Shown piece after piece: positions 13,605-31,015 of a stretch of 64,000 bases of DNA. The stretch lies in contig NZ_CP023277.1 of assembly GCF_003065385.1 (NCBI RefSeq), positions 326,044-390,043 on the forward strand, read 5' to 3'. This DNA comes from Polynucleobacter acidiphobus (GTDB taxonomy: Bacteria; Pseudomonadota; Gammaproteobacteria; Burkholderiales; Burkholderiaceae). The number at the start of each line of letters is the position of its first letter. Positions within the stretch are counted from its first letter, which is position 1. The notes beneath the pieces are model-generated. The model saw nothing but the letters and a program-made list of their open reading frames with translations. It did not search any database and was not told the DNA's origin. A program made the position numbers and the translations under genes.

Positions 13605-13967
13605 ATGTTAAAAAATGCTCATAGTTGGAAGATGAAGAAAAGAGAAATGGGCGGTACTGAAATTACCCGAGGATCGAAAAATGTGTATGCAGATCTAGGT
13701 TTGCCTGACGCTGACAAACTCAAGATTAAGACTGATCTGGTCATTCAAATTATTAAAGCGATTGAGCGCCTTCAGTTGACTCAGGCTGAAGCTGCGCAAC
13801 GGATGGGTATTTCACAGCCAAAAGTCTCAGCCATGATTAATGGAGACTTCTCTAATTTGTCCGAGCGCAAGCTGATGGACTGTCTCACCTGCCTTGGTTA
13901 CAACATTGAGATTCGGGTAAAGCCAGTTAGAAAGCCGATTGGGAGCTTGCGGGTAGTTATTGCTTAG
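13605..13967 (+). CDS. Orphan XRE-family antitoxin-like regulator
   Basis: Up to 120 residues. The body matches the antitoxin family paired with Gp49-like HigB toxins: NVYADLGLPDA, then an XRE helix-turn-helix (LQLTQAEAAQRMGISQPKVSAM split near residues 63-84) and a SERKLMDCLTCLGYNIEI tail. Start choice is uncertain; ATGs at 13605, 13632 and 13647 are all possible and none has a strong ribosome site. No toxin gene is adjacent, although one usually precedes this family, so it appears to be an orphan. Confidence 0.8.
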   Translation: MLKNAHSWKMKKREMGGTEITRGSKNVYADLGLPDADKLKIKTDLVIQIIKAIERLQLTQAEAAQRMGISQPKVSAMINGDFSNLSERKLMDCLTCLGYNIEIRVKPVRKPIGSLRVVIA

Positions 13968-14482: not shown

Positions 14483-14543
14483 TGAGCCGTATTTTAAAAA
14501 ATACGGCTCAAAATATGAGCCGTATCAGCTATAATACGGCTCA
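14483..14543 (+). promoter_or_regulatory. Twin operator overlapping promoter and start codon of fic
   Basis: Two identical inverted repeats lie side by side. TGAGCCGTAT at 14483-14492 pairs with ATACGGCTCA at 14501-14510; TGAGCCGTAT at 14516-14525 pairs with ATACGGCTCA at 14534-14543. Both have 8-bp spacers and their centres are 33 bp apart. A consensus -10 TATAAT (14530-14535) lies in the second repeat, whose last base is the A of the fic ATG. Transcription would start at or next to that ATG. The obvious candidate regulator is the winged-helix-like C-terminus of the Fic protein. Confidence 0.75.
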
Positions 14544-15730
14544 TGGTGTTCGCTCATTCATCAAAAAAAACCTATATCTGGCAATTGCCAGGATGGCCAA
14601 ACTTTCAGATCGATCATGATCGCTTGGAGTCTCTGATAACCAGTGCTCGCCAAGCCCAAGGAGTGATTATTGGTAAGGCATCCGCTATTGGCTTAACGGA
14701 TATCGCTGATGTTCATCAACAACTCTGGATTGATGAGGTGATTGCTACCTCAGCGATCGAGGGCGAGCAATTAAATCCGGACTCTGTGCGTTCATCGGTA
14801 TTAAGAAAGCTGGGAATAAAGTATCAGGCTATTTCTGATCCGCGTTCAGAAATGATTGATGGACTAGTCGCCATCATGGATGATGCGCTAACGCATCACG
14901 ATGAAGAGCTTAATCATGAGCGATTGTGTTCGTGGCATCGGGCAATCTTTTCAAATGAGCGATCAATTAAACCGATGAGGGTTGGCGGTTATCGTACGCA
15001 TACAGAGCTTATGCAAATTGTGAGCGGTTTATATCGCAAAGAGAAGGTGCACTACGTCGCGCCACCTTCGGAAGAGGTCCATGATCAGATGCATCAGTTT
15101 CTGACTTGGTTTGAGCTCACGCGTCCAAATATCAAAGGGCGCAAGGCAGAATCCTTGGATGGTTTGTGTCGGGCTGCTATTGCCCATTTATGGTTTGAAT
15201 CGATTCATCCGTTTGAGGATGGAAACGGTCGCCTTGGGCGGGTCATCTTGGATATGGCTCTCGCACAGGATTACCCACACTCGATGCGTATTTACAGCAT
15301 CTCGAATCAAATTATGCGAAATCGTTCCTCGTACTACGATGCGCTTGAAGAGGCGCAGTCAGGAGATTTAGAAATCACTAATTGGTTGATTTGGTTTTTA
15401 AACACATTTATTAAGTCATGCAAAACATCCTCACAATTTATTGATGATGCAATCGCAAAATCGCAATTTTGGCAAAGGCATGCCAATCGGGGATTTAGTG
15501 AACGACATCGTAAGGTGATTCAAAAACTGATCGAGGCGGGCGATGGCGGATTTCTTGGCGGCCTTACCGCTGAAAAGTATCAAAAAATCACCAAGGTATC
15601 TAAAGCGACTGCAACTCGCGACCTTGGGATTCTCAAGGAATGGGGCATCTTATTTACTAGCGGGGAAGGTAAAGCCACGCGCTATTACCTGAAATTAGGT
15701 AATTGGCAGCATGGGCTTGATAAGGAGTGA
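14543..15730 (+). CDS. Fic-family AMP-transferase with DUF4172 N-terminus
   Basis: 395 residues. The Fic core carries the catalytic HPFEDGNGRLGR motif (about residue 225). An inhibitory-helix motif TSAIEG, matching (S/T)xxxE(G/N), lies upstream near residue 70, so this is a class II Fic protein, inhibited by its own N-terminal helix. The N-terminal YIWQLPGWPNF segment is typical of DUF4172. The C-terminal 80 residues look like a winged helix (LTAEKYQKITKVSKATATRD), suggesting DNA binding and autoregulation at the twin operator. Such proteins usually transfer AMP to Tyr or Thr hydroxyls; the target is unknown. Confidence 0.9.
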   Translation: MVFAHSSKKTYIWQLPGWPNFQIDHDRLESLITSARQAQGVIIGKASAIGLTDIADVHQQLWIDEVIATSAIEGEQLNPDSVRSSVLRKLGIKYQAISDPRSEMIDGLVAIMDDALTHHDEELNHERLCSWHRAIFSNERSIKPMRVGGYRTHTELMQIVSGLYRKEKVHYVAPPSEEVHDQMHQFLTWFELTRPNIKGRKAESLDGLCRAAIAHLWFESIHPFEDGNGRLGRVILDMALAQDYPHSMRIYSISNQIMRNRSSYYDALEEAQSGDLEITNWLIWFLNTFIKSCKTSSQFIDDAIAKSQFWQRHANRGFSERHRKVIQKLIEAGDGGFLGGLTAEKYQKITKVSKATATRDLGILKEWGILFTSGEGKATRYYLKLGNWQHGLDKE

Positions 15731-17199: not shown

Positions 17200-18390
17200 A
17201 TGGAATTCGTCAGAAAGCACATCCTGTTTGTTGAAGGAGGGTTGCCCACCCCAGAAATGGATGCGGGGTCATTGGCTAATCTAGAGCTGATTAGCCTTAT
17301 TCAATCGCAGGGTCATCGGGTGAGTTATCTCTTTACGGGACATCACCCCATGGGCGCGCGTCACGCACTCATCGATCTGGGATGCGAGGTCATCGATGGA
17401 GTGGGCTTTACACGCGCTCAGCAACAGACTCTATTCAAAGAACAAGGGTTTGATGCGGCCATCCTCTCACGCCCTGGACCGGCACTGCAATGGATCGATG
17501 CTTTAAAGGCGCTTGCGATTCCCACCGTTTATTTTGGGCATGATCTGCACCACGTTCGACTCGAGCGCGAGTATGCGCTTCATTTGGAAAACGCACCGCA
17601 ACCCAAATTGCTGCAATCGTGTTTGGTGCATAAATCGATTGAGCGTCATTTGTGGGAGCTAGCCGATGTGGTGGTCTACCCAACGTCTTGGGAATGCGAT
17701 TACGTCATGACGCACTGTGGCCGCACCCACGCGCTCCCCATGCCGATTTACGATGGTGAGGCGATGGCGCAGCTCCAGCCGCAGATCGCAAGTATCGTTG
17801 CGCAAGTGCAGACCAACGACGGCACCCCATACCCTCTTCTCTTTGTGGGTGGCTCGCATCATGGCCCTAATCGCGATGGTCTTCTTTGGTTCGTGCGCGA
17901 TGTGGCACCTTTACTGACGCTACCCATGGAATTACGGGTCGTGGGGCAGTGGGATTGCGAGGCAATGCAACAACTTAAGGCTGCAACACTCGGTGCATGG
18001 CGCGGCGATCAGCGCTTGACCTTTTGCGGCTCGCTAACGAAGAAAGCGTTATTGCATCAGTACGCCACTGCGTCCTTGGTGATTGCGCCACTGCGCTATG
18101 GAGCAGGGCTCAAGCGCAAGGTGGTTGAAGCATTGCTGTTTGAGCGCCCCTTGCTCACAACCCCGATGGGAGTGGAAGGAATCGAGCTAGCACCTAGCCA
18201 ATTGGAGCAGGTGTGTAGTTCCCTCGATCCCAAGGCGTTTGCCAAGGCTGTGGAAGCCCGCTTGCAATTGCCGCCATCAGTCCATCAGGCACGCTCTCAA
18301 GATATTGCTCGCCAGATGGCTAGGCAGTTTTCAAAGACCCAGCGTTTAGCGAGTCTTGCGCAAATCTTTGCTATGCTTAAACTTTACTAA
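17200..18390 (+). CDS. GT4-type glycosyltransferase
   Basis: 396 residues. Rossmann-like N-terminal half beginning HILFVEGGLPTPEMDAGS, and a C-terminal nucleotide-sugar-binding half with YGAGLKRKVVEALLFERPLLTTP, the acidic-to-acidic motif of GT4 (group 1) enzymes. LFVGGSHHGPNRDGL is the interdomain glycine-rich loop. It opens the cluster of same-strand genes that continues to galE. Donor and acceptor are unknown. Confidence 0.86.
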   Translation: MEFVRKHILFVEGGLPTPEMDAGSLANLELISLIQSQGHRVSYLFTGHHPMGARHALIDLGCEVIDGVGFTRAQQQTLFKEQGFDAAILSRPGPALQWIDALKALAIPTVYFGHDLHHVRLEREYALHLENAPQPKLLQSCLVHKSIERHLWELADVVVYPTSWECDYVMTHCGRTHALPMPIYDGEAMAQLQPQIASIVAQVQTNDGTPYPLLFVGGSHHGPNRDGLLWFVRDVAPLLTLPMELRVVGQWDCEAMQQLKAATLGAWRGDQRLTFCGSLTKKALLHQYATASLVIAPLRYGAGLKRKVVEALLFERPLLTTPMGVEGIELAPSQLEQVCSSLDPKAFAKAVEARLQLPPSVHQARSQDIARQMARQFSKTQRLASLAQIFAMLKLY

Positions 18391-18417
18391 TTTTGGGTTT
18401 TCACACTATTTGAGTTT

Positions 18418-18840
18418 ATGAGCACTGCCTACGAAATCAATACCCCGCACGTGATTTCTGAGTCACTTGGTAGTGAGACCGTCATCATTAATTTAGAGAC
18501 CGGTACCTACCATCATTTAAATGGCAACGCTGCGCGCATTTGGCAACACTTGCAGCAAGCGATTACCACTGACATGCTGGTACAGGGAATGGTAGCGGGC
18601 AGTCCAGAGCGTGCGTCCACCCTGACCCAGGCTCTCCCCGATTTTCTTGCGCAATTGGTGGATCAAGGCCTGATTCGCGAAAGTACTCGCGAGCCAATTG
18701 CACAACCTTGCCCAGCCATTACGCTCGATGACAGTGCCATGGTGTGTGAGAGTTTTACCGATATGCAAGATTTATTGGGCTTAGATCCCATTCATGAGGC
18801 CGATCCGAACGCTGGCTGGCCACATCAGCCACCGACCTAA
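18418..18840 (+). CDS. PqqD-like protein
   Basis: 140 residues. The first 90 match the PqqD fold (SETVIINLETGTYHHLNGNAARIW, with a following helical LPDFLAQLVDQGLI). PqqD proteins bind peptide substrates for modifying enzymes. In a recurring arrangement they occur next to an HprK-like kinase and a nucleotidyltransferase family protein, as here. No radical-SAM enzyme or short precursor peptide is visible nearby. The C-terminal 50 residues are unassigned. Confidence 0.82.
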   Translation: MSTAYEINTPHVISESLGSETVIINLETGTYHHLNGNAARIWQHLQQAITTDMLVQGMVAGSPERASTLTQALPDFLAQLVDQGLIRESTREPIAQPCPAITLDDSAMVCESFTDMQDLLGLDPIHEADPNAGWPHQPPT

Positions 18841-18845
18841 TTGGT

Positions 18846-19886
18846 TTGAACGCGTTATTTGCGCAGTTAGCCACCACTTTGCGTGATCCGATCGCAAAGG
18901 CAATCTCCTTCTCAGAGCAACTATTTGGTCTGCACCGTTTTTCCTTTTGGATCAGTCCCGATTGGCCCCACCAGGCAATTCGTGCCGCTCTTCATGGGAC
19001 CCAGAATCAGAGCGCGTCAGTTCAATCAGACTGGCAGGTCTTGGCATTAACCGTAACGCACGAGCATCTGACCGAGCTTGTAAAGCCCTACGATCGCAAT
19101 CGCTATGGGCAATTAACCATGCCCGGATGCGTCCAAGGTCAAGGGGGAGTTTTAACTCAGATGGCGTTTTACGATCCGCTGGCAAAGTCCTTAAGAGCCT
19201 ATGATTTTGATTCTCAGATTGCCTACATCCTAGTGACCCCAGCGCATGCATTTGCCGAGTGGGAGATTTTTAGTCCCTTTAAAGAGTTTTGGCATTACTG
19301 GGCCCTTGTGCATGATTCACTGGTGGTGCACTCAGGGGTGGTATGCCAAGCGGATGGCGCGCTTGTGATCTTAGGACCGGGTGGTGCAGGCAAGTCCACC
19401 ACCACTTTATCCTGCGTAGAATATGGCATGCAAACGACGGGCGATGACTTTAATGTATTGTCGATGGTCGATGGACAGGTTTGGGTGTATCCCCTTTTTC
19501 GAACCATCAAGGCAAAATCGGGCAACTCCCTCATTACCGGTTTTCGCTCTTTATCCCGCTGGCCCTCGCAGACCTATGCCGCAGATCAGAAAACGATTTA
19601 CTTTCCACCAAGTGCTGATGCCATTTGGCAAAAAAAGCCAGCGCAAGTGCTCGCCTTTTTAGAGCCTCAGTGGCAAAGCCAGGATTTGCCGCGCACCCCG
19701 GCTGCTAAGCCTGTCATCCAAAGTGCCGTGAGTGCTATTTTGCAACACCCATATTGGGCAGAGCGCTATTTGCAGCGCATGAGCGCCATGCTGGCGCGAT
19801 GCCCACGCCACACCCTGTATTTGTTGGCGCAACCCCACGATAATGTGGCGCGCATTCGTGCTTTGATGGCGACTCTTCGGTCATGA
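18846..19886 (+). CDS. HPr-kinase-like P-loop protein
   Basis: 346 residues, apparently from a TTG; no good ribosome site is visible, so the start is uncertain. A P-loop GPGGAGKSTTT lies near residue 180 and is preceded by HSGVVCQADGALVIL, the usual layout of HprK-related kinases. A TTGDDFNVLSM segment follows, where HprK has a nucleotide-binding aspartate. There is no sign of a full HPr kinase/phosphorylase with its C-terminal hexamer helices, and no HPr gene nearby. Its substrate is unknown; the neighbouring PqqD-like and nucleotidyltransferase genes suggest a shared system. Confidence 0.8.
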   Translation: MNALFAQLATTLRDPIAKAISFSEQLFGLHRFSFWISPDWPHQAIRAALHGTQNQSASVQSDWQVLALTVTHEHLTELVKPYDRNRYGQLTMPGCVQGQGGVLTQMAFYDPLAKSLRAYDFDSQIAYILVTPAHAFAEWEIFSPFKEFWHYWALVHDSLVVHSGVVCQADGALVILGPGGAGKSTTTLSCVEYGMQTTGDDFNVLSMVDGQVWVYPLFRTIKAKSGNSLITGFRSLSRWPSQTYAADQKTIYFPPSADAIWQKKPAQVLAFLEPQWQSQDLPRTPAAKPVIQSAVSAILQHPYWAERYLQRMSAMLARCPRHTLYLLAQPHDNVARIRALMATLRS

Positions 19887-20590
19887 AAGCGATGCACCAG
19901 GTCAGCGTCATTATTCCGGTGTTTAATCCCACTGAGCACCTAGCGGCGTGCGTGGCGAGCGTCTTGCAGCAAGAGCACGCTCCGTTTGAAATCATCCTCG
20001 TTGACGATGGCTCCAGGAATGACCTCCTGGCGACGCTAGAGACGACTTGGCCAGGCGAGCTTGTGCGGGTATTGCGGCTCGAGCGCAATCAAGGCGTTGC
20101 TCACGCTCGCAATTGGGGTGTGCAACACGCGCGCGGTGAGTATTTAGCATTTATCGATCAAGACGATTTATGGCCACCCCATAAATTACGCCTCCAGCTT
20201 GAGTATTTGGATGCGCATCCTGCCATGGATTTTGTGATTGGTCAGCAGGTGTATTTTTTATCCGCTGAACAAACCCAGGTGCCACCGTGGTTGCGCCGCG
20301 AATTACTGCAAACGAGTCTGCCTGGGTATTTGCCGGGCACTCTGCTAGTGCGCAAAGATCGTTTTGCAACAGTTGGTTTTTTTAATGAAACCCTGGTATC
20401 AGGTACCGATGATGTGGATTGGTTTTTTCGGGCAAAGGATCGGGGTATGCAAAGCGCTATGCTAGCCGATGATCTTTTATACAAACGCGTGCATGGCAAT
20501 AACTTAAGTCAACAGGTTACTCGGCATCAGCAGGAGTTATTGCGCGTGGTGGCTGCGAGTATTGCGCGTCAGAAAAACACAGGTAAATAA
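19883..20590 (+). CDS. GT2-family glycosyltransferase
   Basis: 235 residues. GT-A fold enzyme: VSVIIPVFNPTEHL at the N-terminus, ILVDDGS, GVAHARNWGVQHARGEYLAFIDQDD containing the metal-binding D-x-D-type motif, and a later GTDDVDWFFRAKDRG acceptor-side motif. The start overlaps the kinase stop by ATGA, and the next gene overlaps by one base, so the genes are probably translationally coupled. Confidence 0.9.
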   Translation: MKAMHQVSVIIPVFNPTEHLAACVASVLQQEHAPFEIILVDDGSRNDLLATLETTWPGELVRVLRLERNQGVAHARNWGVQHARGEYLAFIDQDDLWPPHKLRLQLEYLDAHPAMDFVIGQQVYFLSAEQTQVPPWLRRELLQTSLPGYLPGTLLVRKDRFATVGFFNETLVSGTDDVDWFFRAKDRGMQSAMLADDLLYKRVHGNNLSQQVTRHQQELLRVVAASIARQKNTGK

Positions 20591-21252
20591 TGCCAATCTC
20601 TGTGATCATGCCGTGTTACAACGCCGCTCTGTATATCGAAGAGGCGATTGCCTCGGTCTTAGCGCAGGGCGATTGGGTGGGTGAACTGATTGTGATTGAT
20701 GATGCCAGTACCGATGACAGCGCTAAGCGCGTTTTGCACCTTGCGCACCCGAAGATTCAGCTGCTACGTCGAACCACCAATGGTGGCATTGCATTGGCGC
20801 GCAATCAAGGGATTGAGGCAAGTTCGAACGAGTACTTGGCGTTTTTAGATGCCGATGATTGGTGGCCAATGCAGCGTTTAGCAAGGATGCGCGCCACTTT
20901 GGGTGATGGGCAGTGGTGCTTTGGTCAGATTGAGCATTTTTATTCCCCCGAATTGCAGCCAATGCCCACTAAACCCTTACCACCCATCCAAACCGGTTAT
21001 TTTGCAAGTGCGATGCTCGCGCGTCGCTCATTTTTTGAGCGCGTTGGAGTATTTAATCCTCAATTGCGCGTTGGGGAGTTTATCGATTGGTTTGATCGTG
21101 CTCGCGCGATTGCGCCCGATCCAGTCCTCCTAAACGAAGTGGTTTTAAGGCGGCGCATTCATCGCAGTAATTCATCGTTAACAAGCCAGCAGCATGTCCG
21201 TGACTATCTCAAGGTGGCTGCCTTAGCGATTGCACGAAAGCGTTCATTGTGA
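20590..21252 (+). CDS. GT2-family glycosyltransferase
   Basis: 220 residues, a second GT-A enzyme similar in layout to the preceding one: ISVIMPCYNAALYIEEAI, VIDDASTDDSAKR, GIALARNQGIEASSNEYLAFLDADD. The ATG lies in the TAATG overlap. The protein is short for a GT2 enzyme and has no membrane segment, so it probably acts in the cytoplasm on a carrier or protein acceptor. The two enzymes may have arisen by duplication. Confidence 0.9.
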   Translation: MPISVIMPCYNAALYIEEAIASVLAQGDWVGELIVIDDASTDDSAKRVLHLAHPKIQLLRRTTNGGIALARNQGIEASSNEYLAFLDADDWWPMQRLARMRATLGDGQWCFGQIEHFYSPELQPMPTKPLPPIQTGYFASAMLARRSFFERVGVFNPQLRVGEFIDWFDRARAIAPDPVLLNEVVLRRRIHRSNSSLTSQQHVRDYLKVAALAIARKRSL

Positions 21253-23651
21253 GTTTGAGGCCCGAATACCTTGCCTTAATGGATGAATGCCACCACGGGC
21301 AATTTGCCGATGCAGCGCTTCGCATCACCAAGCAATTGCAACGCAGCGATGGTGCAGTGACTGCGCAGGTGATGGCAGCTCATTTTGCCTTGCGCCAAGC
21401 GCAATTTTCCAAAGCCCAATGGTTCATTGATGCAGCGCTCGCCAAGGATCCTTCAGACCAAGGAATTTATGCCGAGGAGCTTTTATACCTCTTTGCTCAA
21501 AGTGATTACGCCACGCTTTGGCAAAAATGGAATTTAGCAGTTGTCGCGGCCGCCCCAGCGCAGCATCCGATTCACGTGCTGGCACAAATGATGGAGCTTC
21601 TGAGTGCCGATGCCCCGCGTGATAGAGTGCTGCAAAAAATCAAGACCCATCCATTTACGACCATGGCCACGCATTTGCCATGTTTTGCATTTTTAGCAAA
21701 AGCGGATCCGCATATGCCGGCGTTGGATTTTGAAGCCGAGCTAGGACTGCAAACATTACGTAGCGTAGAAGATCTCATTGCCAAAACTGATTACCTCATG
21801 GCTTTGGTAGTGGCCCGCTGGGCCGCACACCTTGCTCCCAATGATGCCAATGCCTTTGCGGCTTTGGGGCTAGCGGAGCTTGTCAACGGCTTTGATACCT
21901 TGGCGGATCGCTATTTGCATGAAGCGGAATTTCGTCAAGCAAGCGATATGCCTCTTGTGAATTTGTATCGCTATCGGATCTTTATGAAGCAGGGCCGGTG
22001 GACAGATGCCAACATCATGGCCCAAGCGCTCATGGCCGAGCAGGCGCTTTCTTGGACGGAGTGTCTGAGTTATCTCGACTATGCGCTTTGCCAACATGAG
22101 ATTGCCTTATTTGAGGCAGGAGTCGAGTGGTTTAGTCAACACTTTAAAGACGATGCCCGTTTGCCATCGGCCTTGGCGTACTTCGAGTTGCGCCAAGCGC
22201 TTGATGCCAAGCGCATCAGTTCCTCTGAAGTCCTAGCTCGCTTGGCGCACACCACCTGGCAAGATAATGCTTGCGCTCATTATTTGAAGGCACAGCTTTT
22301 AGAACCCGATGATCCGCGAGCAGCGCAAGCCGCGGCCTTGGCGGCCATCGCGCTTAATCCCTACTATCCTGCTGCCCAACGTTGGCAAGCGCAAGTGGCG
22401 ACTCATCCGGCAGCGCTCGAGTGGATGGGGATTTTTATTCCAAAAAATCATGAGGGAGCGGCTTGGCCAAGTCCCCAGCACGAAGCGCTATTGCAACTCA
22501 TTTTTGATGTACCGCGTGCGGAGCTGAGTTCGCGTTGGGCTAAGTTGGTAGAGGTAAATCCCGTTAGCGGATTGGATGCGGGCGCAAATCGCTTGTTGCC
22601 GTTTTTGCATAAACGCTTTGAGACCGATATGGTGGCGCTTGACGGATCCAATCGGGCGCTTTTAAAAGGGGTTTGGAAAAAAAGTTTTTTTGAAAATGCC
22701 ACACGCCTGGCAACGCTTTTGGAGTTGCAGGGGCATTTTCAAAACGAAGCAATTGATCTCGTGCTGTTAAAGGGGATTGGTAATGCCCTTGATCTTTATG
22801 GCGACTTAGGATCGCGGCCCATGGCCGATTTGGATATTCTGATTAAGCCCGCCGAAGTGGCTACCACGCATCAACTACTCACTCGGCTTGGCTGGAGCAG
22901 TGATGATCCACCCATTGCCCCGCGAGTGCGCTTTCAATACGCAAGCACCTATCGCCATCCCGGCGGCGCGATGGTGGATGTTCATTGGCGACCGTGTGAA
23001 GATTTTGTGAGTGATATTTACGACCCTGCCGATTTAGGGGAGTTGCATGCGATTGTGGTGCAAGGCCAAACCTTTGCAGTGCTCAATCCCACCTTGAATT
23101 TATTAACCACCATCTTGCACGGGGTGGCATGGAATCATCTTCCACCGGTGCGCTGGGTTTGCGATGCTCGCTTAATTTTGCATAAATACCAAACCCAGAT
23201 TGATTGGGGGCTCATGCACAGCTTGGCTTTGAAGTATCACTGCTTAGAGGTCTTGGTCTTGGGTTTGCAATACCTGCAGCGGCATTTACCGCAGCCACTG
23301 CGTTTGCCGCCGCCCATGGAGCTTGCGCTCCTGAGCGATTACTCCCAATCACCATTAATTCGGGTGCGGACCCAGTCACGCTCGCGCTTAGCCAATGCGG
23401 AAGAGATCATCGCTACTGTAGAGTTGTGGCGCAAGAAAGTAACGCTTGGCGCGCACGATCGCATCATCGCCACTGGCGGAGAAGCGCCTCAATATGTACG
23501 GGGGCGATGTGAGCTGCGTGAGATTCCTTGGTTAGCGCAGTATGACCCAGGCATTGGAGATCGCTATTTTGGGGATCAGGTGTCCGCTTATAATCTCATC
23601 ACCATCGATGGGGCGCATTCGTGTGTATTGCGCCTCAATGCCCGCTATTGA
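21249..23651 (+). CDS. TPR-like protein with C-terminal nucleotidyltransferase domain
   Basis: 800 residues from a GTG overlapping the previous gene. Residues 1-470 look like an all-helical TPR-like array (repeated A..a-type helices such as ANAFAALGLAELVNGFDTLADR). Residues about 480-790 match the NTP_transf_5 nucleotidyltransferase family: VLLKGIGNALDLYGDLG, PMADLDILIKP with the paired aspartates, and MVDVHWRP. This family is commonly found with HprK-related kinases and PqqD-like proteins. The fusion to a long helical N-terminal half is notable. The transferred nucleotide and target are unknown. Confidence 0.82.
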   Translation: MSLRPEYLALMDECHHGQFADAALRITKQLQRSDGAVTAQVMAAHFALRQAQFSKAQWFIDAALAKDPSDQGIYAEELLYLFAQSDYATLWQKWNLAVVAAAPAQHPIHVLAQMMELLSADAPRDRVLQKIKTHPFTTMATHLPCFAFLAKADPHMPALDFEAELGLQTLRSVEDLIAKTDYLMALVVARWAAHLAPNDANAFAALGLAELVNGFDTLADRYLHEAEFRQASDMPLVNLYRYRIFMKQGRWTDANIMAQALMAEQALSWTECLSYLDYALCQHEIALFEAGVEWFSQHFKDDARLPSALAYFELRQALDAKRISSSEVLARLAHTTWQDNACAHYLKAQLLEPDDPRAAQAAALAAIALNPYYPAAQRWQAQVATHPAALEWMGIFIPKNHEGAAWPSPQHEALLQLIFDVPRAELSSRWAKLVEVNPVSGLDAGANRLLPFLHKRFETDMVALDGSNRALLKGVWKKSFFENATRLATLLELQGHFQNEAIDLVLLKGIGNALDLYGDLGSRPMADLDILIKPAEVATTHQLLTRLGWSSDDPPIAPRVRFQYASTYRHPGGAMVDVHWRPCEDFVSDIYDPADLGELHAIVVQGQTFAVLNPTLNLLTTILHGVAWNHLPPVRWVCDARLILHKYQTQIDWGLMHSLALKYHCLEVLVLGLQYLQRHLPQPLRLPPPMELALLSDYSQSPLIRVRTQSRSRLANAEEIIATVELWRKKVTLGAHDRIIATGGEAPQYVRGRCELREIPWLAQYDPGIGDRYFGDQVSAYNLITIDGAHSCVLRLNARY

Positions 23652-23672
23652 CGCGATTGATCAAGAAGAGCC

Positions 23673-25658
23673 ATGGCACAACCATCCTCACCCCCTGCGA
23701 TCCCTGCATCCTTAGAGGCGGCCGATCGCCTCTTTGAAGCTCAGGAGTATGGCAAAGCAAAGGTCATTTATGAGACGCTCATGCATGAGCGCGCATCTCC
23801 TGCCAAGGTGTGGCAGCGCTTAAGCCTGATTGCCCTTATGGAGGGCCATTTAAATCACGCTTTAGAATATGCCTTAGAAGCTCACAAGCGAGACCCAAAA
23901 GATCCCACCACTATATTGAATTTAGCCGAGCTTAATCGGCGCTTGGGAAAGTTAGCCGATGCCTTGCATTGGGCTCAATTTGCAGTCACGCATTTTCCGC
24001 ACGATCCAGTAGCCCATTACAACCTTGCGAGCGTGTATCTGGACTTGCAAGACGATCTTAAAGCGCAGGAAGCTTTGATTGAGGCTACGCGCTTGCAGCC
24101 AAACCATGGTCCGGCTTGGAATAATTTGGGGTCGGTCTATCAACGGCGTGGTTTATTTGAAGAGGCTTATGAGGCATATGCCATGGCAGTGCAGATTAAC
24201 CCCAGCCATGCAGAAGCCCAATGCAATAAGGGCTCGATTTTGTATCACCGTAAGCAATTCGAGGCAGCCCGTACCTGCACGGAGTTGGCCCTCCAAGCGC
24301 GACCCAATTTTTTAGAGGCCAAAAACAATCTCAAACACATGATTGATCCTCAGGGCGGGGCAAATTACTTGATGGCTCTTGCAGGTTTGGCAAGTGGCTT
24401 TCAAAATCAACAACGGCATCTTGCTGTGATTGAGTTATTACAATCGGAGGTGCAAACTGGCAGTTCGCTTGCTGAAATGGCGCAGCTGTGGCATTTATTA
24501 GGAATCTCGTATTACAAATTAAATCAATTTGCGAGCGCTTACCAATGCTATCGAGAAGCGATCGCTATTGCACCACGTTTTCCTGGAGCCCTCAATAGCC
24601 TCGGGTTTTTATTGCAAGACATGCGGCTGTATGAGGACGCGAAGTTGGCTTTTGAGGATGCGCTTGGATTGGAACCAGGCTCGGATATGGCAAGACTGAA
24701 TCTGGGCCTTTTGCAACTCAAGTTAGGCGAGTGGGAAGCGGGTTGGGACAATTATGAATTGCGCTGGACGGGTTCAGCCGAGGCAATCAATCAAACGCAA
24801 GTCAAACCCAATCTTGCGCTCCCAGTCTGGGATGGGGCACAAGGAGTAGAACAGAAGGGGATTCTCGTGTTGGCAGAGCAGGGGTTTGGAGACGCGATTC
24901 AGTTTTGCCGTTACCTGCATCAACTGCAAACGCGAGCTCAGCATATTAGTTTTCATGTGCCTGACGCTTTGCGGCGCTTAATGGAATGGTCCTTCCCAAA
25001 TGTGGATGTTCGCTCTTTGATACCAGCTCGTCTAGATCCATGGAGTGCTTACGTACCACTACTGTCCTTGCCCCGCATTTTTCAAACGCGACTTGAAACC
25101 ATCCCGGCTGACACCCCGTATTTATACGTCCCCACTATTTTTAAAGAGTATTGGCAACGCCGCGTGCAGCAAACCCGTTCGGATCGATTGAAGATCGGTA
25201 TTGCATGGTCTGGCCGAAAAACCTTGCAATACGATGCGCGTCGTAGCATTCCCTTTGATGCCTTGGCCCCACTTTTGGCGATGGATCATGTTGATTGGAT
25301 CTGTTTACAAAAATGGGATCGGGAGATGGATGAGCGTCGTCTCGATTCGTCCACTTGGTTGGACTGGACCACAGAGCTTCATGATTTTGCGGATACGGCA
25401 GCACTTATTGAAAATCTGGATGCAGTAGTTGTAGTTGATTCGGCAGTTGCGCACCTCGCTGGTGCACTTCATAAGCCGGTGTATTTGCTTAATCGGTACG
25501 ATGGGGAATGGCGCTGGTTATGCAATCAAAGCCGCTCACCGTGGTATCCATCGATGCAGATCGTCAATCAATCGGAATTTGGCAATTGGGCGTCTGTGAT
25601 TGAGGTTGTAAAACAGAAAATTCAAGGGTTAACCCTAGATCGCTCGATGGGTAGCTAG
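23673..25658 (+). CDS. TPR protein with GT41/GT9-like C-terminal domain
   Basis: 661 residues. Residues about 15-370 are TPRs; clear units include AWNNLGSVYQRRGLFEEAYEA split over residues 145-165 and NSLGFLLQDMRLYEDAKLAF. Residues about 395-650 have a Rossmann-type glycosyltransferase region: ILVLAEQGFGDAIQFCRYL, KIGIAWSGRKT, and VVDSAVAHLAGALHKPVYLL. This layout resembles TPR-fused glycosyltransferases related to O-GlcNAc transferase and HMW1C. The gene directly precedes a large Ser/Thr-rich autotransporter, a plausible acceptor. Confidence 0.85.
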   Translation: MAQPSSPPAIPASLEAADRLFEAQEYGKAKVIYETLMHERASPAKVWQRLSLIALMEGHLNHALEYALEAHKRDPKDPTTILNLAELNRRLGKLADALHWAQFAVTHFPHDPVAHYNLASVYLDLQDDLKAQEALIEATRLQPNHGPAWNNLGSVYQRRGLFEEAYEAYAMAVQINPSHAEAQCNKGSILYHRKQFEAARTCTELALQARPNFLEAKNNLKHMIDPQGGANYLMALAGLASGFQNQQRHLAVIELLQSEVQTGSSLAEMAQLWHLLGISYYKLNQFASAYQCYREAIAIAPRFPGALNSLGFLLQDMRLYEDAKLAFEDALGLEPGSDMARLNLGLLQLKLGEWEAGWDNYELRWTGSAEAINQTQVKPNLALPVWDGAQGVEQKGILVLAEQGFGDAIQFCRYLHQLQTRAQHISFHVPDALRRLMEWSFPNVDVRSLIPARLDPWSAYVPLLSLPRIFQTRLETIPADTPYLYVPTIFKEYWQRRVQQTRSDRLKIGIAWSGRKTLQYDARRSIPFDALAPLLAMDHVDWICLQKWDREMDERRLDSSTWLDWTTELHDFADTAALIENLDAVVVVDSAVAHLAGALHKPVYLLNRYDGEWRWLCNQSRSPWYPSMQIVNQSEFGNWASVIEVVKQKIQGLTLDRSMGS

Positions 25659-25716
25659 TTTATCCTTTGATTTACTAAAAAACTCAGTGAATTCATCTCA
25701 GTCCAATTAATTAAAA

Positions 25717-27816
25717 ATGAACAAGATATATCGACTGATATGGAGTAAGCGCCACGGTTGTCTGGTTGCTGTTGCTGAGAATGCGCGCTCTCATAGCGGG
25801 GGTAGCGCGGGGCAATCGCTTGTCGTGGGTGCTCTATTGGTTGGCTCGATTGCGGCGATCAGTCCAAGCCCAGCCATCGCTGCAGATTGCAGTTTTACCG
25901 GCGGCGCTACGATTTCTGGAACGTGTGAGCTACCAGCTAGCCCTGGGTTAACGGTCACTGGATCGCAGGCCATTGAGGTGACGACAGGCGCTGCTGCGCA
26001 AACCACCGTAAGTTTCACATCTGGCTCATTGCGTAATTCTGGATTAATTAGCGGCTCCACAGACGGTATTCAAAATACCTTTGGGACTCTGGGTGGATTT
26101 ATTAGCAACAGTGGCACCATCTCGGGGACAAATAACGCGATTAATTTAACCAATATGACCCGGTTTATCAGCAACACCGGGACGATCTCTAGTTCAGGTG
26201 TTGGTATTCGCTTAACAAACGGCAACTTAGCGGGTGGGATCACTAATGACGGGTTAATTAGTGGCGTGACCGAAGCAATTCGCATTAATGGTGGGACATT
26301 TCAGGATTTTTCGACGTTTCGAGTCATATCAAATTTCGGCACCATTAGTGCTTCAGGTGGGGACGCATTTCGCTCAGGCAATTCCACAGCGGGTAGCGCA
26401 ACATCCATCATCGGTACGATCGCGAACTTTGGATTGATTTCGGGTCAACGCGGCCTCGTTTTTGATGGGGGGACTAATCAAATCGGTAGCTTTCACAACT
26501 CTATCTCGGGATCCTCTAGCTCGGGATTTTTAGTAGGCGAAATTGCTGGAACATCTACCGGTATTCAGATTGGCTCTACCAGCATTAGTAGCACGATCAG
26601 CGGCAGCATTCAAAACCAAGGGTTGATCCGCGGTGGTGATATTGGAATCTATATTCAAAATGGCACACTCACCTCACTACGCAACTACGCGGGAACGATT
26701 ACTGGAAGCTTAGACAATAGTAAGGCGCTATGGATTGCCAATGGCCGAATTCTGGAGGGTATTAGCAATACGGGCACGATCGGTGGTACCGCCTCTGGCA
26801 GTACCGCGATTAAAATTGGTGATGGCACCAATATTGGTACGCTAAGTGGTGCAATCTATATTCCTGGAATCACCAATTCTGGAACGATCGGGCTAGGTAA
26901 TATCGCGCTTGAAATTGATAGTGGCTCATCGCTCACCCATAGTCTCGAGAATAGCGGAACCATTACCGCAAACACAACAGCGATTCGTGTTTTAGGTACG
27001 CTTGCAAATAATTCATTTTCAGGCAATGCGATCGTTAACTCGGGCACCATTTCAGGTTTTAGTGATGCAGCAATTGAGGTTGGTTCAGGAACTTTTTCTG
27101 GAACGATCTCAGGAAGTATTTCAAATACAGGATTGATTTCAGCTACTTCTGCGATTCGCATTGCTCAAAATAGCACTTTGCTTGGATACATCACCAACGA
27201 TGGAACGATTGCTGGAACTTCGAATAGTTACGGCATCGATCTAACTGGAACCATTACCGGTGGAATTCGCAATACCGGATTGATTTATGGGGGACCTTCT
27301 GGCCGATCGGGGGCCGCAATTAGCGTTTTTAGTCCCGACGTATCATCGCCGGCACTAGTTTCTTCGGGCATTACGAATCTTGGAACAATTGCTGGTGAGT
27401 TTGCAATTTATGTCAATGAATTTGGAACCATTGCGGGCGGTATCACTAACTCCGGCAGCATTTTGACGCGAACCTTGGGTTCATCCGGCGGCGCCTCGGC
27501 GATTGCAATTCTGGGACGGGTCTCTGGAAGTGGTGGTGGCGCAAGCATTATCAATACTGGAACGATTGATAGTGGCGCTGGCGCTGGAATCGATATTGGT
27601 ACGTCTTATGTTGGGACCATCAGTGGCAGTATTCGTAACGCAGGAACTATTAAGGGTGCGACCTCTGGCATTCGTTTGCAAAACGGAACGATTACTGGTG
27701 GCATTACGAATTCTGTCTCAGGACTCATTACTGGTAGTCAAGCCAATAGCAGCGGTATTTGGATTGCCGGAGCAAATGCCACAAGTAGTGGCGGTTTAAG
27801 TGGGGGGAATTCGTAA
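25717..27816 (+). CDS. Autotransporter, N-terminal part (frameshifted)
   Basis: 699 codons forming the passenger of a type Va autotransporter. It starts with the extended signal peptide region MNKIYRLIWSKRHGCLVAVAE, then a hydrophobic core ending in SPAIAA, as in long autotransporters. The remainder is a run of imperfect repeats of about 18-30 residues around I.NSGTISG and GGI.N.G.I, expected to form a beta-helix. The frame ends at TAA 27814-27816, right after a G6 tract (27802-27807). Removing one G continues the repeat pattern into the next frame, so this gene and 27800-29995 are one gene split by a +1 shift. Alone it would lack a barrel and could not reach the surface. Confidence 0.88.
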   Translation: MNKIYRLIWSKRHGCLVAVAENARSHSGGSAGQSLVVGALLVGSIAAISPSPAIAADCSFTGGATISGTCELPASPGLTVTGSQAIEVTTGAAAQTTVSFTSGSLRNSGLISGSTDGIQNTFGTLGGFISNSGTISGTNNAINLTNMTRFISNTGTISSSGVGIRLTNGNLAGGITNDGLISGVTEAIRINGGTFQDFSTFRVISNFGTISASGGDAFRSGNSTAGSATSIIGTIANFGLISGQRGLVFDGGTNQIGSFHNSISGSSSSGFLVGEIAGTSTGIQIGSTSISSTISGSIQNQGLIRGGDIGIYIQNGTLTSLRNYAGTITGSLDNSKALWIANGRILEGISNTGTIGGTASGSTAIKIGDGTNIGTLSGAIYIPGITNSGTIGLGNIALEIDSGSSLTHSLENSGTITANTTAIRVLGTLANNSFSGNAIVNSGTISGFSDAAIEVGSGTFSGTISGSISNTGLISATSAIRIAQNSTLLGYITNDGTIAGTSNSYGIDLTGTITGGIRNTGLIYGGPSGRSGAAISVFSPDVSSPALVSSGITNLGTIAGEFAIYVNEFGTIAGGITNSGSILTRTLGSSGGASAIAILGRVSGSGGGASIINTGTIDSGAGAGIDIGTSYVGTISGSIRNAGTIKGATSGIRLQNGTITGGITNSVSGLITGSQANSSGIWIAGANATSSGGLSGGNS

Positions 27817-29995
27817 TCTGGGCACAATTGGTGGCTCAGCGAGTGGCGCGATAGGACTCATCGTCGGCGATAGTGTCTATGCAAGTACGCTCAGCGGTGG
27901 TGTCACCAACTCTGGAACGATCGGGCGTGGCTCTTACGGGATTCAGGTTCAAAGCCTATCCTCATTAACGGGCGGCCTGACCAATAGTGGAACGATTAAC
28001 GGTAGTACCGCGGGTATTCAAGTCGAAGGAGTTCTTGCCAATGGCGGCTCGGGTAACGCCATCACCAATTCTGGCTTGATTCAATCGGCAGGCGGACCGG
28101 CCCTGCAAATTGGCGGGACTCTTGCGGGCACCATCAGTGGCAGTATTCATAATTCTGGGCAAATCGTAGGCAGCTCATCGGCCATTCAAGTTGCAAATAA
28201 CGGTGTGGTTACCGGTCAAATTAGTAATAGTGGAACTCTGAGTGCTACCCATGCGTTAAATTTGACCAACACCGCGAGTGGTTTTGTGATCAACAATACC
28301 GGGGTGATTGATGGTCACGTCATTCTTGGTATTAATACGCTCAATTTAAATGCCACCACCAATACAGTTGACGGTTCTATCTCCGGTGGAGTTGCTAGTG
28401 GAGTGACGCTTAATGGCGCATTAACTAGTTCGGGTACGATTGATGTGGGCCGTTTTCAGATTCAAAGTGGGGCAAGTCTCACAATGGCCAATGCCATGAC
28501 CATATCCGATTCTGGGCAGGCATTAAACAATTCTGGAACACTCGCGATTGCCGCCGGAACCAGCCAAACCTTAACAGGTAACTATAGCCAAGCGAGCGGA
28601 GCCACATTTCAAACGGGGGTTGCGGGCGCGTCAAGTTATGGTCAGCTTCGTGTCAACGGAAATGCAAGTATTAGTGATGGTGCTCAGGTCAATGTCAATG
28701 TGATTGGAAGCCCATCCATTTCAAGCAATACAACCATGAGCGGCATTATCTCAGCGACCGGGACTCTTGCAGCCACTGCTGCAGCAATTACAGTCACCGA
28801 TAACAGTGCGCTATTGGACTTTTCATTGGCGGTATCAGGGAGTAGCTTGGATTTGATCGCTCGCCAGTCATCTGTCAATAACTATGTGAGTGCTGTTCAA
28901 AGCAACAATAATCCGTCAGCCTTGGATGCTGCTACAACCTTGCAAGTGCTATCTGCAACCCCATCGCCGACCTGGGATCCGGTCTTTACTGCATTTAATC
29001 AAATGGCTAGCACTCAACAAGTATCAAATGGGGTCAGCCAAACAGTTCCACTTTTGGTTGGAGCTGGCTCGCAAGCCACCGCGATGGTGATGCAAAACTT
29101 TAATGATGTGATTGACTCACGTGTCTCGGTCAAACAAGGCTTGGCTAGCAAAGAAGAATTTATTGGCAATCAAGAGGTTTGGTTAAAACCGATCGGTAGT
29201 TGGGCCGAGCAAAATCAAGAGAATAATGTTTCAGGATATCGCGCAAATACTGGTGGGGTCATTTTAGGGATCGATCGAGGTATCAATGCAAATACCAGCC
29301 TGGGAGTGGCTTTGGTCTTTGCAAATAGTAATATTTCATCGAATTCAGCGGTCGCTCCAAGCTCTCTCAATATCAATAGTTACCAATTGGGTGTTTATGG
29401 GCATCATCGACTGACCCAATCAACCGTTGTCAACTATCAAGCAGATATTGGTATTAACCAAAATAAAGGAAGTCGTTCAATTAATTTCATGGGAACGACG
29501 GCAAACTCAAGTTATGACAGTTACTCATCGCATGTAGGTTTGGGCTTAAACCATCACTTGCGTGTAAGCGAGCTCTTCACATTTATTCCATTAATTCGTA
29601 CGGACTACATTGGAGTCATGTCAAATGCATACACCGAAAGTGGTGCGGGGCCGTTAAGCCTCAATGTCAGTCAGCAAAATTACAATCAATGGCTAATGAC
29701 AACGGGTGCAAAAGCTGAGTATGCATTGCCAAATCGCCTGAAGTTAGTTGGTAACTTAACGGCCGGATACAACGTAATCAATCAACAAGTGCAAGTTACA
29801 TCAGCGTTTGTTGGTGGTGGGGGTAGCTTTGTAACCAATGGCTTATCGTTATCACCTTGGTTATATAGCGCAGGCTTAGGATTGGTTGGCAAAACAAAAG
29901 ACAATGTCGAGTTGAGTATTCGTTACGATTTACAATCGTCTTCTTCGGGTTATTTCAATCAAATTGCCTCTGCACGCATTCGATTCTTTTTTTAG
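27800..29995 (+). CDS. Autotransporter, C-terminal passenger and beta-barrel (frameshifted)
   Basis: 731 codons. The first 230 continue the passenger repeats in the other frame (GGIRNLGTIGGSASG, GGLTNSGTINGSTAG). A linker follows, with a helical segment (VMQNFNDVIDSRVSVKQGL) that probably threads the pore. The C-terminal autotransporter barrel occupies about 455-731, with alternating strands and the typical aromatic end ARIRFFF. There is no signal peptide here, so the gene works only with 25717-27816. galE starts 6 bp after the stop. Confidence 0.88.
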   Translation: MGGIRNLGTIGGSASGAIGLIVGDSVYASTLSGGVTNSGTIGRGSYGIQVQSLSSLTGGLTNSGTINGSTAGIQVEGVLANGGSGNAITNSGLIQSAGGPALQIGGTLAGTISGSIHNSGQIVGSSSAIQVANNGVVTGQISNSGTLSATHALNLTNTASGFVINNTGVIDGHVILGINTLNLNATTNTVDGSISGGVASGVTLNGALTSSGTIDVGRFQIQSGASLTMANAMTISDSGQALNNSGTLAIAAGTSQTLTGNYSQASGATFQTGVAGASSYGQLRVNGNASISDGAQVNVNVIGSPSISSNTTMSGIISATGTLAATAAAITVTDNSALLDFSLAVSGSSLDLIARQSSVNNYVSAVQSNNNPSALDAATTLQVLSATPSPTWDPVFTAFNQMASTQQVSNGVSQTVPLLVGAGSQATAMVMQNFNDVIDSRVSVKQGLASKEEFIGNQEVWLKPIGSWAEQNQENNVSGYRANTGGVILGIDRGINANTSLGVALVFANSNISSNSAVAPSSLNINSYQLGVYGHHRLTQSTVVNYQADIGINQNKGSRSINFMGTTANSSYDSYSSHVGLGLNHHLRVSELFTFIPLIRTDYIGVMSNAYTESGAGPLSLNVSQQNYNQWLMTTGAKAEYALPNRLKLVGNLTAGYNVINQQVQVTSAFVGGGGSFVTNGLSLSPWLYSAGLGLVGKTKDNVELSIRYDLQSSSSGYFNQIASARIRFFF
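27802..27807 (+). other. G6 homopolymer at the autotransporter frameshift
   Basis: Six consecutive G residues sit exactly where the passenger frame breaks. With five G (or eight) the reading frame joins SGG to IRNLGTIGG and continues the repeat consensus to the barrel. The tract may be a slipped-strand switch, a fixed mutation, or an assembly error in a homopolymer. Confidence 0.7.
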
Positions 29996-30001
29996 AAGCA
30001 T

Positions 30002-31015
30002 ATGACTCAAACCATTCTCGTAACCGGCGGCCTCGGTTACATCGGTTCGCATACGGTCGTCAAACTCTTAGAGCAAAACTACCGCGTCTTCATTTTGGAT
30101 AATCTCTGTAATAGCGAGCGCAGTGTGCATGCGCGTATTACCCAAATTACCGGTAAAGACTCGATCTTTGTGGAGGGCGATATTCGCGATCGCTCCCTCG
30201 TTACATCGATTTTTCAATCTCATGCGATTGATGGCGTGATTCATTTTGCGGGATTAAAAGCAGTTGGTGAATCCCAAGCTGAGCCGTTGCGCTACTACGA
30301 CAACAATGTATTGGGCAGTATCGTTCTTTTTGAGGAGATGCAAACAGCAGGTGTTAAGACCTTGGTATTTTCCTCATCCGCGACCGTATATGGTGATTCG
30401 CCTGATACGCCATACCACGAGCAGCTCCCCTTAAAGCCGATTAATGTCTACGGGCGCACCAAGTGGATGATCGAGCAGATTCTTGCGGATCTTGCATTGG
30501 CTCAACCGCAGATGGCGATTGCATGTTTGCGTTACTTTAATCCCGTTGGGGCCCATGCTTCGGGACTTATTGGCGAGCATCCGCGCGGCATTCCCAACAA
30601 TCTCATGCCCTATATTGCCCAAGTTGCCATTGGCGAGCGGGAGTGCTTAAGAGTGTTTGGTGCAGACTACCCCACACCCGATGGCACGGGCTTGCGTGAT
30701 TACATCCACGTCGATGATTTAGCCGAGGGCCATCTTTTGGCCTTGCAAGCTCTTCAGAGTCACGCTGGGCTCTTAACCGTTAACCTGGGTACGGGCATAC
30801 CGACCAGTGTGCTACAAATGATTGCTGCCTTTGAGGCAGCCTGCGGTAAACCGATTGCCTATGAGATCGTGGAGCGGCGCTCAGGCGATAGTGCGAAAAG
30901 TTTTGCTGATCCGAGTCTCGCCAAGACCCTCTTGGGTTGGCAAAGCCAATATGGCATTGAGCGCATGTGCGTGGATACGTGGCGGTTTTATCAGTCTCTT
31001 AGCAAGTCACTTTAG
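30002..31015 (+). CDS. galE: UDP-glucose 4-epimerase
   Basis: 337 residues. NAD-dependent interconversion of UDP-glucose and UDP-galactose. NAD-binding GGLGYIGSHT at the N-terminus, SSSATVYG with the catalytic Ser/Thr, and YGRTK with the Tyr/Lys pair. Length is normal. It begins 6 bp after the autotransporter stop and is probably in the same transcript, so it may supply UDP-galactose to the upstream glycosyltransferases. Its last 17 bp overlap the convergent gluQ gene. galU is also in the window. Confidence 0.95.
   Translation: MTQTILVTGGLGYIGSHTVVKLLEQNYRVFILDNLCNSERSVHARITQITGKDSIFVEGDIRDRSLVTSIFQSHAIDGVIHFAGLKAVGESQAEPLRYYDNNVLGSIVLFEEMQTAGVKTLVFSSSATVYGDSPDTPYHEQLPLKPINVYGRTKWMIEQILADLALAQPQMAIACLRYFNPVGAHASGLIGEHPRGIPNNLMPYIAQVAIGERECLRVFGADYPTPDGTGLRDYIHVDDLAEGHLLALQALQSHAGLLTVNLGTGIPTSVLQMIAAFEAACGKPIAYEIVERRSGDSAKSFADPSLAKTLLGWQSQYGIERMCVDTWRFYQSLSKSL

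Follow-up and report, generated by a model that had tools for sequence, protein, structure and literature searches.

The tailoring of lasso peptides is among the closest described counterparts of the locus analyzed here. In the bsf cluster, the RRE (RiPP recognition element, RiPP denoting a ribosomally synthesized and post-translationally modified peptide) BsfB1 strongly stimulates the HprK-like kinase BsfK (PMC10368454). For pseudomycoidin, PsmK phosphorylates the C-terminal serine and PsmN then adds one or two hexoses (PMC8498205, PMC9266682) – with the question of whether PsmN acts as a glycosyltransferase or a nucleotidyltransferase, transferring sugar or nucleotide, stated as open (PMC9266682). 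We examined a 64,000-nucleotide stretch of the Polynucleobacter acidiphobus genome (contig NZ_CP023277.1, positions 326,044 to 390,043; hereafter ‘the window’) in which a PqqD-like RRE protein, an HprK-like kinase, and an NTP_transf_5 protein are encoded in one block with glycosyltransferases, an autotransporter, and galE. An original prediction, made from the sequence of this block, regarded the trio as having no established function; this was partly wrong, since RREs, kinases, and nucleotidyltransferases of these kinds have tested roles on lasso peptides (PMC10368454, PMC8498205, PMC9266682). The likeness to lasso tailoring covers the RRE (B1), the HprK-like kinase (PadeK, PsmK, BsfK), and the nucleotidyltransferase (PsmN and BsfN, whose membership in NTP_transf_5 is assumed). 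Unlike lasso clusters, the cassette formed by these genes has a tail fused to the RRE, with no conserved serine in it, and two family 2 glycosyltransferases (GT2s) – and we found no separate precursor, no lasso protease over the cut-off, and no cyclase in the block.

Other described systems resemble the remainder of the block. The BAHT heptosyltransferases (Aah, TibC) and HMW1C are modifying enzymes encoded adjacent to their autotransporter or adhesin, and the window likewise pairs modifying-enzyme genes with an adjacent autotransporter; we know of no RRE–kinase–NTP_transf_5 cassette beside a BAHT or HMW1C system. FlmG, which joins an N-terminal tetratricopeptide repeat (TPR) region to a C-terminal GT-B domain, can bind and O-glycosylate a surface protein, flagellin, in the cytoplasm (PMC7591256). 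The window encodes a TPR protein with a comparable layout, but the target of the window system would be the autotransporter, and its similarity to GT9 is weak and covers a short stretch.

The block (17200–31015) reads, all on the + strand, family 4 glycosyltransferase (GT4), PqqD-like, HprK-like, GT2, GT2, NTP_transf_5, TPR-GT9-like, autotransporter, galE. The original prediction had described nine same-strand genes of these kinds, several of them overlapping, and we recovered the open reading frames (ORFs) in place, with matching families and overlaps of 4 nt at 19883–19886, 1 nt at 20590, and 4 nt at 21249–21252. We tentatively favor, with less than even confidence, reading the block as a surface-protein modification locus of two modules, in which RRE-guided phospho-glycosylation by the cassette from PqqD to NTP_transf_5 (module A) would act on, or feed, an autotransporter paired with the TPR protein (module B).

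The genes of module A recur together far beyond the window. Scanning the GTDB species genomes for relatives of the window’s PqqD-like protein yielded 33 cassette loci, many in metagenome-assembled genomes (MAGs), spanning up to 10 kb on each side and sometimes ending at contig ends (L and G numbers below denote loci and genomes). The loci fall into eight phyla – Pseudomonadota, Bacteroidota, Cyanobacteriota, Actinomycetota, Gemmatimonadota, Verrucomicrobiota, Chlamydiota, and Fibrobacterota. PqqD is encoded in all 33, GT2 in 32, and NTP_transf_5 in 28; the kinase was found by profile in 32, the exception being L104, whose contig ends just after PqqD. Kinase and GT2 form a single polypeptide in six loci, with one GT2 in L101 and L113 and two in the actinobacterial L103, L105, L107, and L115. 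At the level of sequence, PqqD–HprK–GT2–GT2–NTP_transf_5 is evidently an independent cassette, and the trio that the original prediction had singled out for gene-neighborhood analysis does recur within it. Additional genes vary: a GT4 similar to the window’s occurs in the five actinobacterial loci and L111, a gene of an ATP-binding cassette (ABC) transporter cluster lies amid the cassette genes in seven of the 11 Bacteroidota loci (Pfam-checked in L126), and the Chlamydiia, Coxiellaceae, and G082 loci hold one or two extra related proteins, of which that of L119, scanned singly, is GT4-like.

The distribution of the cassette is patchy. Within the window’s genus, the kinase profile matched four of 186 genomes, three of them strongly (the window’s, G549, and G082); the kinase model also matched, more weakly (E 1e-10 to 1e-20) and without the tail, four genomes of L126’s order and G476 of the window’s genus. 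Kinases of L139 (14296–19367, in G082), L119 (a Chlamydiia MAG), and L132 (a Coxiellaceae MAG), all from cassettes with GT4-like inserts, share one supported clade, which suggests that cassettes move between distant bacteria. Some contigs were sampled twice: L106 is the contig of L069, L114 is that of L071, and L003 shares its contig with L106, a locus included in the kinase model. We found no paper describing the cassette or its tail, nor one joining HprK, PqqD, and nucleotidyltransferase, in a searched literature outside which most subscription journals fall.

The PqqD-like protein (18418–18840, 140 aa; PqqD E = 2.9e-11) carries its RRE domain at about residues 5–88. The best structure match of its model (pLDDT 88.7) was the lasso protein TbiB1 with leader (TM 0.88 on the target), and TbiB1 was likewise the best PDB match of the family profile (E = 9.8e-16). 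Judged by these comparisons, the protein is a lasso-type RRE, related to lasso B1 proteins, with a C-terminal tail that the original prediction had not mentioned. The tail (residues 115–135, 18760–18822) follows a variable linker and reads D(M/L)xDL(L/I)x(L/I)DP(I/V)H(D/E)(V/A)D..GW, with D118, L119, D123, P124, H126, G133, and W134 identical in all 32 aligned PqqD-like proteins (the 33 loci plus the window, minus L116, whose PqqD is truncated where the contig begins, and L109, a near-copy of L110). Mean entropy is 0.95 bits in the tail (1.30 without the scan-pattern columns), 2.38 in the RRE, and 3.12 in the linker.

Part of this conservation reflects sampling. All 32 rows match the scan pattern that fetched them, DLxxxDPxH (only three match the other pattern), which makes the invariance within DL..DP.H a product of the selection; the argument for tail conservation rests on columns outside the pattern and on loci reached blind to the tail. 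Searches with the kinase alone reached G549 (sister of the window’s genome), G082, and G736, each of which encodes a tailed PqqD next to the kinase; G038, with the same arrangement, was also reached, and its contig is scan locus L106. A tail hidden Markov model found one strong place per genome in nine of nine genomes, in PqqD only, and matched six of 398 genomes of the phylum; PqqD, kinase, and GT2 occur together in the five other than the window’s (L198–L202). A weak match (E = 0.016) in a 920-aa ORF (45244–48006), which we take to be DNA polymerase I, was rejected as a second tail-bearing protein, as no tail is present there.

In 16 of the 32 proteins, the motif [FYW]xxPx[LIVFM] precedes the tail Asp at a fixed distance of 10 residues (mean 0.06 and maximum 2 in shuffled linkers); it resembles the lasso leader motif YxxPxL, which is read by B1 proteins (PMC10368454). 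The window copy does not have the motif at this slot (18730–18759); residues 110–113 of its model form a strand, which by our guess occupies the leader groove of the RRE. Because the tail columns hold no conserved Ser, Thr, Tyr, or Cys, the modified acceptor probably lies elsewhere. Most likely, the near-invariant tail serves as a leader-like docking peptide built into the PqqD-like protein, which the cassette enzymes would read while modifying that separate acceptor. A survey of 1226 short ORFs in the surroundings of cassettes (searched at the window and at 32 loci, L109 being excluded; ORFs came from 32 of these sources) revealed no widely recurrent candidate for a hidden precursor, similar pairs occurring only in L101/L108/L122, L107/L115, and L112/L120.

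The HprK-like kinase (18846–19886, TTG start, 346 aa) has no Pfam match at E 0.1 and was recognized by its conserved residues and family profile. The profile matches HPr kinase/phosphorylase structures over residues 162–213 (3.3e-7), and H162, G177, G182-K183-S184, D201, and K249 – the HPr kinase-type His, P-loop, and Asp – are invariant in 24 aligned kinases; cassette kinases are 15–33% identical to the window’s. The 50 matches listed in a Foldseek structure search were all phosphoenolpyruvate carboxykinases, whose fold is related to that of HPr kinases. The kinase gene is followed by those of the two GT2s (19883–20590, Pfam E = 3.2e-32; 20590–21252, E = 2.5e-28) and of the NTP_transf_5 protein (21249–23651, GTG start, 800 aa; E = 8.7e-38). 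The last passes the PF14907 gathering score (130.7 bits versus a cut-off of 31.2) with a domain at residues 446–680 (22584–23288) that includes a KG...RPMADLD stretch, preceded by an N-terminal extension (about residues 1–380, 21249–22388) with a weak TPR_19 match (E = 0.036).

The PqqD, HprK-like, and NTP_transf_5 families are common to the window cassette and the HPr-rel-A system (TIGR04352, TIGR04353, with NTP_transf_5), but the HPr-rel-A PqqD is short with no tail seen, and the window proteins fall far under the curated cut-offs, PqqD at 20.7 of 35 bits and the kinase (HprK_rel_A) at 37.7 of 200. Among 30 NTP_transf_5 loci of the window’s order (L039–L068), an HprK-like ORF occurs in 29 and a weak PqqD-like match in six, none of the six with the tail. 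Members scanned from these loci, three kinases (405–423 bits) and two PqqDs (53–54 bits), all exceed the HPr-rel-A cut-offs, and two of those HPr-rel-A loci also hold an XrtA/PEP-CTERM PrsT gene. As for lasso machinery, the B2 protease family Transglut_core3 was over the cut-off in none of nine genomes (sub-threshold in G000 and G549, more than 200 kb from the block); Asn synthetase-like cyclases were absent from the block ORFs, and Asn_synthase appeared in two of 95 neighbor ORFs of other cassettes (94 of the 126 listed plus one of G082). Set against the RRE–kinase–nucleotidyltransferase chemistry known on lasso peptides, what is possibly new here is the built-in near-invariant peptide, the GT2s, and the autotransporter in one clade.

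We infer every enzymatic step, and the target; the roles of BsfB1 and BsfK and of PsmK and PsmN set the proposed order of phosphate, then sugar or nucleotide, then extension by glycosyltransferases. In module A, the PqqD-like protein would present a peptide, the HprK-like kinase would put a phosphate on the acceptor, and the NTP_transf_5 protein would add a sugar or nucleotide to that phosphate. The two GT2s and the GT4 (17200–18390, 396 aa; GT4-type Pfam match E = 2.6e-15) would extend the glycan, with UDP-galactose supplied by GalE (30002–31015; UDP-glucose 4-epimerase, above the curated cut-off). In module B, the passenger would be bound by the TPR region and would receive its first sugar from the glycosyltransferase part, by analogy with FlmG on flagellin. 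The acceptor in the window’s lineage is probably the Ser/Thr-rich passenger.

Module B comprises the autotransporter and a putative protein glycosyltransferase (23673–25658), in which TPRs are joined to a GT9-like C-terminal stretch (short GT9 match, 4e-5). In the window, the autotransporter consists of two ORFs in different frames, 25717–27816 (ESPR signal, 2.5e-14, and a Gly/Ser/Ile/Thr-rich repeat passenger) and 27800–29995 (remaining passenger and beta-barrel, 6.5e-44), which meet at 27800–27816 in a G-rich passenger stretch. The autotransporter of the original prediction is present, with both signal and barrel, but spread over two frames rather than forming one gene, whereas in G549 it is one frame of 1425 codons. 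The break may reflect an assembly error or phase variation.

Within the genus, the window’s TPR-GT9-like protein had matches in 41 of 81 genomes (E 1e-20), and autotransporter relatives were present in seven of 111 (E 1e-15). Related autotransporters have HMW1C-like, TPR-GT-like, TPR-sulfotransferase, APS kinase, or glycosyltransferase genes adjoining or nearby. In G026 (L141, L142, L072), a single 10,429-codon autotransporter frame adjoins the gene for a TPR-sulfotransferase protein of 1764 aa, one stretch of which is 50% identical to the window TPR-GT9-like protein. In G035 (L073, 5378–19900), genes for an HMW1C-like protein, a TPR-sulfotransferase protein (with a stretch 48% identical to the window protein), an APS kinase, and glycosyltransferases precede a 5,540-codon autotransporter. 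Both loci look like protein-modification loci, that of G035 like a sulfated glycoprotein locus. TPR proteins also directly adjoin the autotransporter in the alphaproteobacterial L190 (12364–16915), and L194 is similarly arranged (one of its two TPR proteins was checked by Pfam); Pfam identified these neighbors as TPR-sulfotransferases, ruling out their assignment as TPR-GT9 proteins.

The window’s genome (1.85 Mb, a single contig) and its sister G549 share the whole block between the same flanking genes (Fic and DEAD helicase; gluQ-like gene and dnaE). Ten genes – eight of the block, Fic, and the DEAD helicase, the autotransporter being left out – are 88–98% identical in protein sequence with dN/dS of 0.03–0.25. 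This retention between the same neighbors, together with the low dN/dS, indicates that the block is not a chance assemblage. A search for the empty site covered 20 stretches from five relatives; in none of them did the DEAD helicase or the gluQ-like neighbor turn up. Upstream of the block lie genes for a DUF4172-Fic protein (14543–15730), also present in G549, and a helix-turn-helix protein (13605–13967).

What ties the two modules together is their renewed co-occurrence. The original prediction would have been given up had the trio and the autotransporter never been found together elsewhere; they are found together in G549 and, in another gene order, at L190, which lies on the contig of L116. 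The + strand of L190 encodes PqqD, kinase, a fused GT2-GT2, and a 796-aa NTP_transf_5 protein, followed on the − strand by galE, a 1980-aa autotransporter, two TPR-sulfotransferases, and a P450. Its NTP_transf_5 protein aligns to the window’s over 814 columns (31%), extension included; of eleven other cassette NTP_transf_5 proteins, one does not align, and the alignments of the remaining ten are confined to the C-terminal part. The autotransporter query matched three of 15 cassette genomes (those of 13 of the 33 scan loci, plus G082 and G549), namely G549, G1196 (L116), and G583 (L100), and gave no match in the other 12. The kinases of the window and these three genomes group in one clade (100/100) that sits on a long stem; two of its members, L100 and L116, carry a flag for unusual composition. 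The autotransporter is present in all four genomes. In G583, the autotransporters are on contigs other than the cassette’s, one of them beside TPR-sulfotransferases.

Several observations weigh against RRE-guided modification of the autotransporter. We know of no biochemistry on these proteins. No autotransporter was found in 32 of the 33 scan loci (phmmer E 1e-4; some loci are cut by contig ends), so the cassette’s primary job need not be the autotransporter. Surface-protein modification, one of the two options in the original prediction, stays the best reading of the locus, tempered by these 32 loci. The link is confined to one clade on a long stem, two of whose loci are composition-flagged, and the pairing may therefore be a single historical event – possibly an ancient pairing kept through transfer. 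G082, from the same genus, has the cassette but no autotransporter match, and the autotransporters of G026 and G035 are accompanied by TPR-GT-like proteins but by no cassette (G026 has no kinase, G035 no NTP_transf_5 or tail). At L190, the cassette and the autotransporter gene converge rather than forming a single operon, and the TPR proteins there are sulfotransferases. In the window itself, the autotransporter frame is interrupted.

Many of these observations would also fit an alternative that we consider credible if somewhat unlikely, in which the modules are merely neighbors: the cassette would make its own exported phospho-glycosylated peptide or small glycan, and the TPR-GT protein alone would modify the autotransporter. 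The 32 loci without an autotransporter, the ABC-transporter-cluster gene among Bacteroidota cassettes, and the cassette-free autotransporters of G026 and G035 all point this way. They are countered by L190, where the cassette is again paired with galE and an autotransporter in a different order, by the coincidence of kinase clade and autotransporter matches in four of four genomes, and by the N-terminal NTP_transf_5 extension, common only to the window and L190 among the 12 homologs compared.

A more doubtful possibility is that the tail is the substrate itself, with RRE, leader-like stretch, and core in one chain and a modified peptide or cofactor built on LDPIHDVD..GWP, like PqqA or lasso precursors. 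Consistent with this idea, the tail is far better conserved than the kinases, occurs at one strong place per genome in nine genomes, has leader-like spacing from [FYW]xxPx[LIVFM], and is accompanied by no recurrent small ORF beyond a few locus pairs. A fusion of NTP_transf_5 to a PqqD-like domain in L070 (10367–12400), with no kinase or GT2 match in its 19.9 kb (E 1e-3), has a decayed tail that keeps GWP without DPxH. However, the lack of a conserved Ser, Thr, Tyr, or Cys leaves no obvious hydroxyl for an HprK-like kinase, and no leader protease (Transglut_core3) passed its cut-off in any of the nine genomes. In a further reading, about as likely as the last, the cassettes would define a new cross-phylum RiPP-like class with recognition domain and peptide in one chain: the tail (leader-like stretch plus DLLxLDPIHDVD..GW) would be an obligatory carrier for a phospho-glycan built by the kinase, two glycosyltransferases, and nucleotidyltransferase, a unit that in the window’s clade would be passed to the autotransporter.

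An ordinary polysaccharide or lipopolysaccharide locus with a regulatory trio would account for the three GT2/GT4 genes and galE, but is very unlikely given that the ten block ORFs include no polymerase, flippase, or undecaprenyl-phosphate sugar transferase, that kinase–GT2 fusions in six loci tie the kinase to the glycosyltransferases, and that the autotransporter and TPR-GT gene lie inside the block. Identity with a lasso-peptide cluster or HPr-rel-A trio, despite the same three families and an RRE closest to lasso B1, is highly improbable and largely refuted by the missing protease, precursor, and cyclase and by PqqD and kinase scores far under cut-offs that genuine HPr-rel-A members of the order, with short tailless PqqDs, pass.

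If RRE-guided phospho-glycosylation does take place at these loci, such chemistry would not be confined to small natural products: its reach would include surface proteins, or else a carrier peptide that is conserved between phyla as far apart as Bacteroidota and Chlamydiota. For finding the substrate of the kinase and nucleotidyltransferase, the 20 nearly invariant residues of the tail offer a single, easily tagged handle. The gene set is widespread, and its recurrence with an autotransporter in a distant bacterium suggests that surface proteins may be modified here by a route that is possibly new.

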